The notes under the pieces are model-generated. The model worked only from the letters and a program-made list of their open reading frames with translations. It had not been told where the DNA came from and did not search any database. DNA of 64,000 nt, from assembly GCF_000305935.1 (NCBI RefSeq), contig NC_018870.1, positions 2,341,001 to 2,405,000 of the forward strand, in the 5' to 3' direction. This DNA is from Thermacetogenium phaeum DSM 12270. GTDB taxonomy: Bacteria; Bacillota; DSM-12270; Thermacetogeniales; Thermacetogeniaceae. The position numbers and the translations under genes were made by a program. Numbering within the stretch: the stretch's first letter is position 1; each line of letters opens with the position of its first letter. Positions 27,504 to 32,776 of this stretch are shown one piece after another.

Positions 27504-28343
27504 TTACTTTTCCTCCATTTTTTCTAATATTTTTGCAACCGACTCAAGCCAATTGCCATCGAAAAGCTCTATCATACCCTTGTCACAAGCGGTTGAAATT
27601 TTGGGGTCAATAGGTAATTTTGCAAGAACTTTTAAATTATGTTTATCTGCAATTTCTTCAATGTGACTTTCGCCAAATATCTGATAGTCCTTGCCGTTAT
27701 CGGGACATCTAAAATAGGACATGTTTTCTACCAGACCGATAATAGGGATATTCATCATCTCAGCCATATTAACAGCCTTTGAAACAATCATGGATACAAG
27801 TTCCTGCGGTGAGGTCACAACGATAATCCCGTCAACAGCAATGGACTGAAATACCGTAAGGGGAACATCGCCGGTGCCCGGCGGCATATCGATGAACATA
27901 AAATCTACATCGCTCCAAATAACATCTGTCCAAAACTGCTTTACTGTACCGGCAATAATCGGCCCTCTCCAGACAACCGGATCCGTATCATTTTCCAAAA
28001 GCAAATTTACAGACATAATATCAATCCCAGTCTTTGTTTTAACAGGGAATAGGCCAAATTCGCTGCCCGAGGCTTTCTCCCTGATACCAAAGGCTTTTGG
28101 GATAGAAGGCCCGGTAATGTCCGCATCAAGAATGGCAGTATGATAGTTCATCCTGTTCATGGTAACCGCAAGCATGGAAGTGACAAGTGATTTTCCAACT
28201 CCGCCTTTACCGCTGACAACACCGATGACCTTTTTTACACTGCTCATCTCATGCAGCTTCTCGGAGAAATCTGTTTTTTGTTCTTTTCTTTCTGCGCAGT
28301 CCTCCGAACAACTGCTACAGCTTTGATTGCAATTTTCGCTCAT
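27504..28343 (-). CDS. Mrp/NBP35-type P-loop ATPase (iron-sulfur carrier)
   Basis: 279 residues. The N-terminus is Cys-rich (CNQSCSSCSEDC), as in NBP35-type carriers. The deviant Walker A is VVSGKGGVGKS, followed by DADITGPSIPKAFG, FMIDMPPGTGD-type Walker B (FIDMPPGTGDVPLT) and SYFRCPDNG with a conserved Cys. These proteins bind and transfer [4Fe-4S] clusters. The strong AAAGGAG site precedes the ATG. It lies between the MBL gene and the NifX-like gene. Confidence 0.92.
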   Translation of the reverse strand: MSENCNQSCSSCSEDCAERKEQKTDFSEKLHEMSSVKKVIGVVSGKGGVGKSLVTSMLAVTMNRMNYHTAILDADITGPSIPKAFGIREKASGSEFGLFPVKTKTGIDIMSVNLLLENDTDPVVWRGPIIAGTVKQFWTDVIWSDVDFMFIDMPPGTGDVPLTVFQSIAVDGIIVVTSPQELVSMIVSKAVNMAEMMNIPIIGLVENMSYFRCPDNGKDYQIFGESHIEEIADKHNLKVLAKLPIDPKISTACDKGMIELFDGNWLESVAKILEKMEEK

Positions 28344-28360: not shown

Positions 28361-29183
28361 TTAGATTTCAATTTCACTGCCTGCTGACAGATAATCGATG
28401 CTATCACCCATAATAGCTTTCAGCCTTTTATAAGGCTCGACATCTGTACAATGGCAGGTGTAAAACTTTGCTTTTGTACCCATTAGGTATTTACCAATTC
28501 TATCTATCATTTCAGAGTCCTCGTTTCCGCCTGAGCGGCTGGAAAGATGAAATCCACCTATCACATAGCCCGGCATTCTACCTTTTAGCGTGTGAAAATG
28601 CTCAAGTATATTTATGATACCATTATGAGCGCAGCCTGTTACTAATAGGGTTTTCCCGTCTTCCTCTACCACGAGGTTTTGTTCATGTGCAAAGATATCA
28701 GCTATCGTTTGCCCCTTATATTCCTTGAGCAAACCACTGTTTGATTTTGGGCGTGGCTCTTTTTGGACGATATTAGAGAATACTTGGATTCCACTGTTAA
28801 TAAAGAAACGGTCTGATGTGAGAATAATTTGTTTGTTTTGATTCAGTTCTTCATCAAGACCGATAAATTCCAATTCATCATTTGGACGAATAGCATAGTG
28901 CTTTTCAAAAGCGAGTCGATGTAGAAATACCTCGGCTTTTTTGTTTTCTTTCAAAAAGGTTTTTAGCCCCCCCGCCGTGGTCATAGTGTCCATGCGAAAT
29001 CACAAGAAAGTCAACATCAGCAATATTCACATTAAGCTTTTTTGCATTTTGAAGAAACAGCTCGCTTGCGCCCACATCAAACAATATTTTATGTTTCTTT
29101 GTTTCTATATACAGGCTAAGGCCATGCTCGCTGCCAAAGTCTTTTGATATCGAGGTGTTTTCAACCAACGTTTTAATAAGCAT
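28361..29183 (-). pseudogene. metallo-beta-lactamase-fold hydrolase, broken by a frameshift
   Basis: The N-terminal part (MLIKTLVENTSISKDFGSEHGLSLYIE..) carries FLVISHGHYDHGGG, the metal-binding HxHxDH motif. It then goes out of frame. The following frame continues naturally with LKTFLKENKKAEVFLHR, VTGCAHNGIINILEHF and VIGGFHLSSRSG. The break falls in a run of seven C on the plus strand (28967-28973); six would restore one frame of about 270 residues. The family includes enzymes related to dihydropterin synthase-like MBL proteins often found with NifX and MinD genes. It is either a pseudogene, a sequencing error, or a phase-variable tract. Confidence 0.8.
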
Positions 29184-29187
29184 GACT

Positions 29188-30063
29188 TTAGCCACCACCT
29201 TTTTCAAAGAGTAGATTCATTGTTTTGTGATAAACCTCTTTAACCGCCGTCCCCGATATGCAGTCTATATCTACAACGGTTTGACCATTATTAATCGCTT
29301 TCACGGCATTGGAGTCGAAAGGTATCCTACCGATAAAAGGCAGCCCTTGTTTTTTACAAAACCGTTCAATCTTTTCTGTGTTTTCAATGCTGGTATCATA
29401 TTTGTTGATACATACCGCTGTCTTCGTCCCGAATTTCGCTGCTGTATTTATAATGCGCTCCATATCGCTGATACCTGATATAGAAGGTTCTGCGACTATC
29501 AAAACCATATCCACACCACTAAGTGATGCGATGACAGGACAGCCTATTCCGGGAGATCCATCAATAATGGCAAGTTCCGCATCGGCTGCCGCAGCCTTCA
29601 TTTGCTTTTTCACCTCAGTTACAAGCATTCCGGAGGTACCACTGCCCATTTTTAGTTGCGCTGTTGAAAAAACTTTTTCTCCATCAGAATACAGCATCAA
29701 TTCCCCGGCCACTGCCGGTTTCATAGTTATCGCTTCCACAGGACAAACATACTCACAAACGCCGCAGCCTTCACATGCGAAATGATCCACTTTGTATTTT
29801 TCATCTATTGAAATAGCATCAAATCGGCAGTTTTGCCTACACTGATCGCATTTAATGCAAAGTTCCGGATCTATCACTGCTTTTGGTAGCCCATAATAAT
29901 CTTTTTTTGCAGGTTTAACACTCCATCCGGTAATGAGGTGCAGGTTAGGCGCATCTACATCACAATCCGCATATGCTTTGGCATCAGCAAGCTTTATAAA
30001 CGCACTTGCTATTGTCGTTTTTCCGGTGCCGCCTTTACCACTAAGGATTAGTAGTTGTTTCAT
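29188..30063 (-). CDS. MinD-like P-loop ATPase with two-cluster ferredoxin insert (first of a pair)
   Basis: 291 residues. Deviant Walker A LILSGKGGTGKTTIASAF, then at about residues 64-115 a [4Fe-4S] ferredoxin insert (CIKCDQCRQNC.., CEGCGVCEYVCP), then IIDGSPGIGCPV and AEPSISGISDMERI. In Desulfovibrio such pairs form the ORP complex with the NifX-like ORP protein and are thought to help cluster assembly. It overlaps the second MinD-like gene (30041) by 23 bases. Confidence 0.9.
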   Translation of the reverse strand: MKQLLILSGKGGTGKTTIASAFIKLADAKAYADCDVDAPNLHLITGWSVKPAKKDYYGLPKAVIDPELCIKCDQCRQNCRFDAISIDEKYKVDHFACEGCGVCEYVCPVEAITMKPAVAGELMLYSDGEKVFSTAQLKMGSGTSGMLVTEVKKQMKAAAADAELAIIDGSPGIGCPVIASLSGVDMVLIVAEPSISGISDMERIINTAAKFGTKTAVCINKYDTSIENTEKIERFCKKQGLPFIGRIPFDSNAVKAINNGQTVVDIDCISGTAVKEVYHKTMNLLFEKGGG

Positions 30064-30898
30064 GCTGCACCTCCTTTGTCACATTGTTAAGCAGAGAAGA
30101 AAACAATTCCCGGTATTCCTCATTTTTATTAACGGCGATTTCCGCATTTGAGTTCAAGGTTCCAAGTTCATTGTCAAATGGAATCCTGCCTAAAATCTTG
30201 ATATTTTTTTCCAAGCAAAACTTCTCAGCAGGATTTTCTCCTTCCAAACATTTGTTAAGAAGCACCCCAAATGGCTTATTAAATAACTTGACCAGATCGT
30301 ATACCATATTGAGGTTATGAACACCAAACAATGTCGGCTCAGCCACCAGTATGCAATAGTCCGCATCTTTGATGCTCTCCATCACGATACAAGCGCTTCC
30401 TGGTGGACAGTCGATAAATGTCTGCTTATTTACTTCCGAACTTTCCTCAAGTAGCTTTTTTATGATAGGAATACCCGTAGCTTCACCGGTGTTCAATACT
30501 CCTGTCCATACCGCCACTTCGCCAGAAACACCTTTTTTAATTTTGCCAATAACCTTTGCTTTCTCTGATAGTGCCCTTGCAGGACAAACCAAGATACAGC
30601 CACCGCAGGAGTGGCACACATCGTCAAAGACAATCAGTTTGTTTTTAATATAGGCAAGGGCGTTAAAGTTGCAAAAATCAACGCACTTTCGACATCCATT
30701 GCATAACTCATGATCAACTTCTGGAATCTTTACTGATATTTCTTCTTCTTGAATTCCTTCAGGCTTAAAAAACAGATGTCCATTCGGCTCTTCTACATCA
30801 CAGTCTATATATGTGGATGCTTTCGCTATCGCTGCTAAATTCACCGATACCAGTGTTTTTCCTGTGCCGCCCTTGCCGCTTAGCACAGCTATTCTCAT
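30041..30898 (-). CDS. MinD-like P-loop ATPase with ferredoxin insert (second of a pair)
   Basis: About 285 residues starting MRIAVLSGKGGTGKTLVSVN at 30898. The longer upstream frame is excluded because it runs over the NifX-like gene. The ferredoxin insert (CNGCRKCVDFCNFNAL, then CHSCGGCILVCPARAL) and FIDCPPGSACIVME follow. It is a paralogue of the protein at 29188 with the same order of domains; the two probably form a heterodimer. Translation is coupled to both neighbours. Confidence 0.9.
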   Translation of the reverse strand: MRIAVLSGKGGTGKTLVSVNLAAIAKASTYIDCDVEEPNGHLFFKPEGIQEEEISVKIPEVDHELCNGCRKCVDFCNFNALAYIKNKLIVFDDVCHSCGGCILVCPARALSEKAKVIGKIKKGVSGEVAVWTGVLNTGEATGIPIIKKLLEESSEVNKQTFIDCPPGSACIVMESIKDADYCILVAEPTLFGVHNLNMVYDLVKLFNKPFGVLLNKCLEGENPAEKFCLEKNIKILGRIPFDNELGTLNSNAEIAVNKNEEYRELFSSLLNNVTKEVQHETTTNP

Positions 30899-30899
30899 A

Positions 30900-31268
30900 T
30901 TAATTGCCCCCGTGCCCGTGAAATCCGGCATGAAATTCATCCAACAAAGGTAATTTCCCATCGATAAAAGCATCAATATTATTTTTGGCTGAAGTAGTTG
31001 CCGTTTTATAGATTTTGATTTCAGCGGGTTTTAGCACGTCAGCAGCATTTGCACCTAAGCGGGGAGTGAGTAAAGCACTTGCTTTGTTATCTACTATTAT
31101 TTGTGCAGCTTTAATCCCGGCACCTCCTGTGCTTGTTGCCGCACTGTTGTCAATAAATATACTTTCCTTAGTTTCTACATCATAAATAAGAAAATAGGGA
31201 GTACGTCCAAAGGATACACATACATTCGACTCCAAAGTTTTCTCATCTACTGGAATTGCTATTTTCAT
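30900..31268 (-). CDS. NifX-like dinitrogenase cofactor family protein (second copy)
   Basis: 122 residues from [33 protein letters not shown]. It keeps the family fold (IIVDNKASALLTPRLGANAADVL) but lacks the TEHFGH motif seen in the copy at 27146, having VSFGRTP instead. The C-terminus FHAGFHGHGGN is His-rich. A different metal or regulatory role from the other copy is likely. It overlaps the NifU-like gene upstream by 26 bases. Confidence 0.85.
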   Translation of the reverse strand: MKIAIPVDEKTLESNVCVSFGRTPYFLIYDVETKESIFIDNSAATSTGGAGIKAAQIIVDNKASALLTPRLGANAADVLKPAEIKIYKTATTSAKNNIDAFIDGKLPLLDEFHAGFHGHGGN

Positions 31269-31653
31269 AAGAATCCTCCGTTCTATTTTTGTTTAAATAA
31301 TTCTCAATTGCGCTGCGTAGCGCACTCACACCTAAATTTGAGCAATGAACCTTATTTTCAGGAAGTCCATCTAAAGCCTGGATAATATCTTCTTCCGTAA
31401 TATTAAATGCTTCCTCTAAGGTTTTACCCTTTGCTAATACCGATGTCATACTGGATGTTGCAATTGAAGCACAACAACCAAATACAAGATAGCTGATTTC
31501 TTCTATGCGGTTATCTTTCACCTTTAAATAAACGGTCAGATAATCTCCGCAGGAAGGATCACCGTAGCTTCCTTCAGCATCTGCATCGGGCATACTATGG
31601 GCATTTTGCGGACACATAAAATGCTCGATTACTTTTTCTGAATATATGATCAA
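31243..31653 (-). CDS. NifU/IscU-like iron-sulfur scaffold protein
   Basis: 136 residues. The three scaffold Cys are visible: [28 protein letters not shown] and [15 protein letters not shown]. This is the N-terminal NifU scaffold domain without additional modules. It could build the clusters used by the MinD/Mrp proteins of the same operon. Its ATG overlaps the stop of the DUF134 gene. Confidence 0.88.
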
Positions 31654-32090: not shown

Positions 32091-32369
32091 TTATAGGTTC
32101 TCCAATTGCTTATCAATAACTTCGAGTCGATCCTGCAAAATGGTTTTCTGTTCGTTCAGCAGCTCTTTTTGTGTTTTTGAGGAGGTATGGTTAAATGCAA
32201 ATCCTCTACCAAAGCCACGACCGAAACCACGTCTGCAAGCAAGTCCAAGACCTAATCCCATTCCGAGACCAGCTCCGTACTTAACTGCATTAGCACCTGT
32301 GCAAAGCCCTAATCCTCTTCCAGTCATTGATCCCGCACCCATTGGACCGGTTCCGTCTCTTCTCGGCAT
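32091..32369 (-). CDS. DUF5320 family small protein
   Basis: About 92 residues from MPRRDGTGPMGAGSMTGRGLGLC, the hallmark of DUF5320. A Gly/Leu-rich then Arg/Phe-Gly-rich middle (GLGMGLGLGLACRRGFGRGFGRGF) precedes a C-terminal coiled coil (LLNEQKTILQDRLEVIDKQLENL). The family is common next to NifX-like and MinD-like genes in anaerobes; the function is unknown. It is the first gene behind the operon promoter. GGAGG precedes the ATG by 8 nt. Confidence 0.85.
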   Translation of the reverse strand: MPRRDGTGPMGAGSMTGRGLGLCTGANAVKYGAGLGMGLGLGLACRRGFGRGFGRGFAFNHTSSKTQKELLNEQKTILQDRLEVIDKQLENL

Positions 32370-32392
32370 GTTTTTCACCTCCTTTTAGTTTC

Positions 32393-32441
32393 TGGCATAT
32401 GCCATCTATTCTTATTATACTCCGTTTATGGCATATGTCAA
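32393..32441 (-). promoter_or_regulatory. promoter of the ORP-like operon with two palindromic operators
   Basis: On the minus strand TTGACA (32436-32441) and TATAAT (32414-32419) are 16 bp apart. The palindrome TGGCATATGCCA lies at 32393-32404, downstream of the -10. A near copy TGGCATATGTCA lies at 32429-32440 and overlaps the -35. Their centres are 36 bp apart, so a dimeric regulator could bind both and shut the promoter. Confidence 0.8.
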
Positions 32442-32475
32442 TAACTTTTGAGTAATTTCATTAAAAATTTAAAAA

Positions 32476-32569: not shown

Positions 32570-32690
32570 ACATCTATCCTGACCACACAACCTCAAAAAA
32601 TTCTAAAAAAACATCTAAATCGTCCACTCGCGAAAGCTGACATCTAACCCGACCACTCGCGGGGCTATGACATCTAACCTGACCACTTGA
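32570..32690. repeat. four degenerate 20-22-bp direct repeats, probable end of a lost transposon
   Basis: The unit ACATCTAAC[CT][CT]GACCACTCGCG recurs at 32570, 32611, 32640 and 32670 with spacings of about 41, 29 and 30 bases and a few changes in each copy. Multiple spaced terminal repeats of this size are typical of IS21-like or Tn7-like transposon ends. No transposase gene is next to them. The stretch 32512-32776 holds no gene. Confidence 0.6.
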
Positions 32691-32776
32691 CTATCAAATA
32701 CTGCCTTTATAGACTTGTTTCCACGAAGCGATATTTTCATGTTTTTCACACAATGAGTTTCATACCCATGTGTGCT

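Follow-up and report, generated by a model that had tools for sequence, protein, structure and literature searches.

Bacillus subtilis DeoR, a regulator of the SorC/DeoR family (PDB 7BHY and 8R7Y; PMC11229326), possesses a helix-turn-helix (HTH) that is related to that of DUF134 proteins by both sequence (E=1e-5) and fold. Its recognition helix reads R-P-T-V-S-R, the half-site of its operator is TTGAAC, and its Arg39 contacts the base of G4 in the operator; DeoR forms a tetramer on DNA and carries a C-terminal effector domain (deoxyribose-5-phosphate) (PMC11229326). Sequence alignment places residues 64 and 68 of DUF134 at Pro35 and Arg39 of DeoR, the pairing of Arg39 with residue 68 being our own reading. 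DUF134 differs from DeoR in that the C-terminal sugar-phosphate effector domain of SorC/DeoR regulators is absent from the 125-aa protein studied here; DUF134 proteins carry a Cys/His tail, a zinc-ribbon-like stretch, or a Nitro_FeMo-Co domain.

Region 4 of sigma-70 shares with DUF134 the Pfam Sigma70_r4 match, the nearest folds, and the TTGACA half-site. Residues R584 and E585 of sigma-70 contact base pairs at -31 and -33, R584 the C:G pair at -31 (PMC2613000). In our hand alignment, R584 corresponds to Arg63 of DUF134, which is invariant, and E585 and Q589 correspond to residues 64 and 68. DUF134 is distinguished from sigma-70 by the palindrome of two inverted half-sites that it would read as a regulator, and profile search found in it no sigma-factor regions other than the region-4-like HTH (region 2 and core-polymerase binding).

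The fold family of IscR is Rrf2, unlike that of DUF134. IscR is an Fe-S cluster regulator, some of whose operators embed the -35 hexamer in one half-site (PMC8561392). In the modelled complex, IscR lies on the DNA face opposite to that of sigma region 4, whereas for DUF134 the half-site appears to be the -35 hexamer itself. With respect to gene content, the Desulfovibrio MrpORP/orp operons share with the DUF134 operon the Mrp/NBP35 ATPase, the ferredoxin-type ATPases, and the Nitro_FeMo-Co-like proteins, but have sigma-54 promoters (PMC6345978); the promoter of the DUF134 operon is of the sigma-70 type and bears candidate DUF134 sites.

DUF134 is widespread in anaerobes, occurring in 266 of 398 genomes of the phylum, and is annotated solely as of unknown function. 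A preliminary description of the locus had stated that no binding motif is known for the family, and our search of the open-access literature likewise turned up no motif or operator sequence for DUF134/UPF0251/COG1342. The literature also describes a mycobacteriophage repressor whose operator is CGACATATGTCG; it is presumably unrelated to the DUF134 sites. The present analysis provides the family with a candidate DNA site, a predicted role, and a target set (Mrp/NifX/MinD genes for Fe-S or Mo cofactors), which would give access to the regulation of Fe-S/Mo cofactor handling in anaerobes beyond the sigma-54 orp systems.

The DUF134 operon and its promoter

The window, that is, the whole stretch of 64,000 nucleotides that was analysed, contains an operon encoding, in order, DUF5320, DUF134, NifU_N, Nitro_FeMo-Co, two MinD/ferredoxin ATPases, a metallo-beta-lactamase-like protein, and an Mrp/NBP35 ATPase (Table 1). 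The DUF5320 gene starts at an ATG preceded by AGGAGGTG, the open reading frame list beginning at the GTG at 32378. The 210-aa piece of the metallo-beta-lactamase-like gene showed no Pfam match, and its name is thus based on our reading of an HGHYDHGG motif; the gene is apparently split, possibly by a frameshift or a sequencing error. The Mrp/NBP35 ATPase is MrpORP-like, with a score under the NCBIfam cut-off.

Table 1. Positions of the operon genes and promoter elements in the window
Feature	Position	Strand	Remarks
Candidate operator O1 (distal)	32424..32445	-	22 bp, GTTATTGACATATGCCATAAAC on the - strand; contains the -35 hexamer; 32.9 bits
-35 hexamer TTGACA	32436..32441	-	One arm of O1; same layout in 63/65 homologous loci
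-10 hexamer TATAAT	32414..32419	-	Between O1 and O2; 16-bp spacer, as in 56/65 homologous loci
Candidate operator O2 (proximal)	32388..32409	-	22 bp, ATAGATGGCATATGCCAGAAAC on the - strand; overlaps the inferred transcription start; 23.7 bits
DUF5320 protein, first gene	32091..32369	-	Pfam PF17253, E=7.5e-29
DUF134 (UPF0251) protein, 125 aa	31650..32027	-	Pfam PF02001, E=5.4e-21; Sigma70_r4, E=2.2e-5; putative autorepressor
NifU_N-domain Fe-S scaffold-like protein	31243..31653	-	Pfam PF01592
Nitro_FeMo-Co (NifX/orange-protein-like) protein	30900..31268	-	Pfam PF02579
MinD/ParA-type ATPase with 4Fe-4S ferredoxin insert (1)	30041..30976	-	Pfam
MinD/ParA-type ATPase with 4Fe-4S ferredoxin insert (2)	29188..30063	-	Pfam
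Metallo-beta-lactamase-like protein	28361..29207	-	Open reading frame list; two overlapping frames, 28361-28993 and 28905-29207
Mrp/NBP35-type iron-sulfur carrier ATPase	27504..28343	-	Pfam PF10609, E=5e-88

The second gene had been described as encoding a DUF134 HTH protein with a Cys/His-rich tail, and the Pfam profiles agree: PF02001 was matched with 75.4 bits against a curated cut-off of 27, and PF04545 (Sigma70_r4) with a score barely above its cut-off. The recognition helix, R63-S64-T65-V66-Q67-G68, is sigma-region-4-like. The HTH blocks of the predicted model have pLDDT values of 85-94, both tails being poor, and the nearest solved folds found by Foldseek were those of sigma region 4 and of DeoR on DNA, with a probability of 1.00 and an rmsd of 0.6-0.9 across 45-51 residues; the E-values, 0.06-0.3, are weak because the domain is short. 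Sequence and predicted fold both point to a sigma region 4-type HTH, and DUF134 is the only HTH protein that Pfam detected among the operon products tested. The tail contains an invariant Cys97 and further Cys/His residues. Other members of the family contain a zinc-ribbon-like stretch or, as Pfam showed for five loci (L058, L043, L278, L279, and L285), a C-terminal Nitro_FeMo-Co domain fused to DUF134, a fusion suggesting that the signal is a cofactor or a cluster. Together with the Cys/His tail and the Fe-S operon, these members make a metal or a cluster the likely signal, the identity of the ligand being a guess.

The inner palindromes TGGCATATGCCA (32393-32404) and TGGCATATGTCA (32429-32440) lie on either side of the -10 hexamer with a centre-to-centre distance of 36 bp, and the promoter, TTGACA-16 bp-TATAAT, matches the consensus at 12/12 positions. 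The preliminary description of twin palindromes at a near-consensus promoter, with one palindrome over the -35, was correct on these points, but the length that it gave was somewhat too short: each palindrome extends over ~20-22 bp (GTTATTGACATATGTCAATAAC type) rather than 12 bp, the outer arms GTT(A/T)..AAC completing it. On the - strand, O1 (with TTGACA), the spacer, TATAAT, and O2 follow one another as GTTATTGACATATGCCATAAACGGAGTATAATAAGAATAGATGGCATATGCCAGAAAC. The inner palindrome of O2 lies roughly between +4 and +15 relative to the inferred start, and that of O1 overlaps the -35 hexamer. The latter has a single asymmetric base (TGACATATGCCA on the - strand), exactly the one needed by the -35 TTGACA; the -35 arm remains GAC even in genomes whose DUF134 has Ser64, which accounts for the asymmetry in the window.

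Upstream of the operon promoter, positions 32570-32691 contain 3-4 degenerate direct repeats of the ACATCTAACCTGACCAC type with spacings of 29-30 and 70, which are possibly the remains of a mobile element.

Conservation of the sites at DUF134 loci

A 22-bp site model was trained on the other loci, leaving the window out. The next best score in the 64-kb window after those of O1 and O2 (Table 1) was 4.0 bits. When 8-bp palindromes were counted in the vicinity of the DUF134 gene at 58 loci from the same phylum, GCATATGC and ACATATGT ranked at the top, occurring in 20 and 12 of the loci, respectively, with ~1 expected for each. One-mismatch sites elsewhere in the host genome are mostly within long open frames.

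The second locus set consisted of 80 loci from a public-genome scan, 73 of which, all from one DUF134 subfamily, had enough upstream sequence. Twin CATATG sites were found upstream of DUF134 in 54 of the 73 loci, nearly all spaced 32-41 bp, and were absent from about a quarter. Alignment of 65 twin loci gave the consensus sequences TTATTGACATATGtCA.aAAc for O1 and TAAATGaCATATGTCA.aAAc for O2. TTGACA forms the distal (O1) arm throughout, apart from two of these loci; the spacer is 16 or 17 bp, and the -10 is TATAAT-like, being a perfect TATAAT in 44/65. Other subfamilies keep the site in the altered versions GGGCATATGCCC and TGTGCATATGCACA.

The association was also recovered with a search that uses no gene information. 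The pattern CATATGYC-N(20-34)-GRCATATG was present in 56 of the 398 genomes, and the reversed control pattern in 18 (hand count from the table). DUF134 was encoded in 54 of the 56 pattern-positive genomes, as compared with the 266/398 overall (Fisher p=1e-8), and 24 of the 30 matches that were fetched are at DUF134 genes. The preliminary description had proposed a search for the motif upstream of other DUF134-linked operons and had made its reading depend on conservation there; the twin in 54/73 homologous loci and this retrieval of DUF134 in 24/30 matches speak in favour of that reading.

Outside Bacillota, where the survey covers a few genome-scan loci and plasmid records, paired or single CATATG-like palindromes occur just 5' of DUF134 in Treponema, Phocaeicola, Morganella, Proteus, an E. 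coli plasmid, and Salinivibrio, so that the sites reach Spirochaetota, Bacteroidota, and Gammaproteobacteria. Most DUF134 genes in these records adjoin NifX. In a formal twin test (30-42 bp), three of ten such loci were positive, with a random rate of 0.002. The spacing is shorter in Gammaproteobacteria: on enterobacterial and Vibrio-family plasmids (L281, L282, L284, and L283, the last being the E. coli plasmid NZ_CP147085.1), which carry DUF134 mostly beside NifX, CATATG-type palindromes lie 22-28 bp apart directly before the gene. The twin was also found in loci labelled Synergistaceae, Anaerolineaceae, Actinomycetota, and Acidobacteria, all of which are metagenome bins.

The CATATG site is mostly absent near genes for DUF134 proteins with Pro64, ACATATGT being present at only 7/61; a dyad search at these genes gave no CATATG site in common, and the other DUF134 gene of the host (663832) has no such site. 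Since most Pro64 proteins lack a nearby CATATG site, the site rule is not family-wide. The PTFF group of Pro64 proteins showed a dyad different from the CATATG site: GTTATG-N10-CATAAC was detected in 7/17 loci (<=2 mismatches), and five loci with the PTFF helix (L218, L042, L233, L258, and L210) have in common a 22-bp dyad of the GTTATGAACAA.TGACCATAAC type, located approximately at -39 relative to the estimated start of DUF134. At two further loci (L138, 3501-3875, and L142, 639-1007), an in-frame stop codon was observed inside the stated DUF134 match range.

Covariation of DUF134 residues with bases of the candidate operators

Subfamily descent and gap columns swamped the mutual information computed across all columns and subfamilies, which was replaced by ranking within the subfamily and by contrasts on the tree. 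Within the subfamily, Ser64 proteins, including that of the window, occur with GGCATATGCC, and Thr64 proteins mostly with GACATATGTC. Residue 64 was the best of 96 protein columns for predicting the base beside CATATG (p=7e-8, the next column having 0.012; these values ignore shared descent). Kinship was addressed by the tree count alone, in which residue 64 changed at least seven times and 10/10 of the nearest Ser/Thr contrasts were in the predicted direction. Residue 68 ranked first over all subfamilies for the base two positions further out (p=1e-14, likewise ignoring shared descent), Arg68 being paired with G in 17/19 loci and Gly68 with T or C in 66/66.

What residue 64 predicts varies with its context: Thr64 in combination with Arg68 is paired with GGGC, not GAC. 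In DUF134 proteins, Pro64 together with Arg68 is paired with a related site, TGAACATATGTTCA, which contains the DeoR half-site TTGAAC with the same half-site spacing (hand count), and the contact of DeoR Arg39 with G4 parallels the coupling of Arg68 with G. The gene of a Bacteroidota DUF134 protein with the helix RPTLSR, which played no part in deriving the rule, is preceded by TGAACATTTGTTCA. The covariation of residues 64 and 68 with the site bases ties the site to DUF134 rather than to another factor and is, in our judgement, the strongest of the evidence suggesting this link. Together with the conservation in 54/73 loci, it favours DUF134 as the likely regulator of the twin sites, as had been proposed. 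The putative code at positions 64 and 68 can be tested by single substitutions.

Regulatory model and alternative explanations

The DUF134 gene lies within the operon whose promoter bears the conserved palindromes, a layout expected of an autoregulated repressor. We are confident, though short of certain, that O1 and O2 are operators of DUF134, which would repress its own operon as a dimer occluding the -35 and the start; from comparison of sequences, the palindromes very probably serve as its docking sites for shutting off this Fe-S/metal-cofactor operon. A DUF134 dimer would read each palindrome as two inverted TTGAC/TGGC half-sites through the sigma-region-4-like HTH. One dimer would occupy O1, in which the -35 hexamer TTGACA makes up the upstream arm, and a second would presumably be bound at the same time to O2 across the transcription start, keeping sigma off the -35 and polymerase off the start. 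The expected result is repression, rather than activation, of the DUF5320-DUF134-NifU-NifX-MinD-MinD-Mrp operon. The Cys/His-rich tail, or the fused Nitro_FeMo-Co domain in other members, probably senses a metal or an Fe-S/Mo cluster, and this sensing may lift the repression. The two sites flank a near-consensus promoter, one having a half-site in common with the -35 and the other covering the start, an arrangement that suits repression by occlusion; given the half-site TTGACA and a sigma-like HTH, the most economical model is that DUF134 competes directly with sigma for the -35 bases. DUF134 would then exemplify a regulator with an operator half-site that serves at the same time as a -35 element. 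A more far-reaching proposal, in which the half-site is the -35 hexamer in sigma's register with homologous helices competing for it, the code at residues 64 and 68 holds across phyla, and the protein is a cluster or metal switch for Mrp-NifX-type Fe-S/Mo handling, seems to us evenly balanced between right and wrong.

It is unlikely that DUF134 binds the sites but activates the operon, in the manner of a class-II-type activator at the -35, or toggles between activation and repression like IscR. A regulator overlapping the -35 can activate, as IscR does with the -35 embedded in a half-site (PMC8561392), but a promoter this close to consensus, both here and in the homologous loci, hardly needs help, O2 covers the transcription start, and the half-site sits on the same bases that sigma reads. 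We regard it as still more improbable that some other DNA-binding protein occupies the sites and that DUF134 is just a member of the operon. Autoregulation is deduced indirectly, and any conserved promoter element would travel along with an operon that is itself conserved; against this stand the predictive rank of residues 64 and 68, the persistence of the site across subfamily versions and phyla, and the lack of a second HTH protein among the operon products tested. That the palindromes arose by chance or base composition, or reflect mere promoter conservation without a regulator, is barely credible: the 12-mer is not rare by itself, three copies with <=2 mismatches being found in the window against ~2.6 expected, but the palindrome enrichment, the leave-one-out scores, and the genome-wide retrieval of DUF134 operons contradict this explanation.

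Besides repressing its own operon, DUF134 may also repress other Nitro_FeMo-Co genes in some genomes. The host genome has a single site, TGGCATATGCCC, just 5' of a second Nitro_FeMo-Co/MinD-ferredoxin pair (L011), with a score of 14.5 bits that is no better than those of some in-gene chance sites (13.7 and 16.7 bits). Among the other six fetched matches of the gene-blind search, four are upstream of Nitro_FeMo-Co genes (L113, L119, L124, and L125, the last a near-twin of L124), and one of these four, all away from DUF134, is also accompanied by DUF5320 and MinD.
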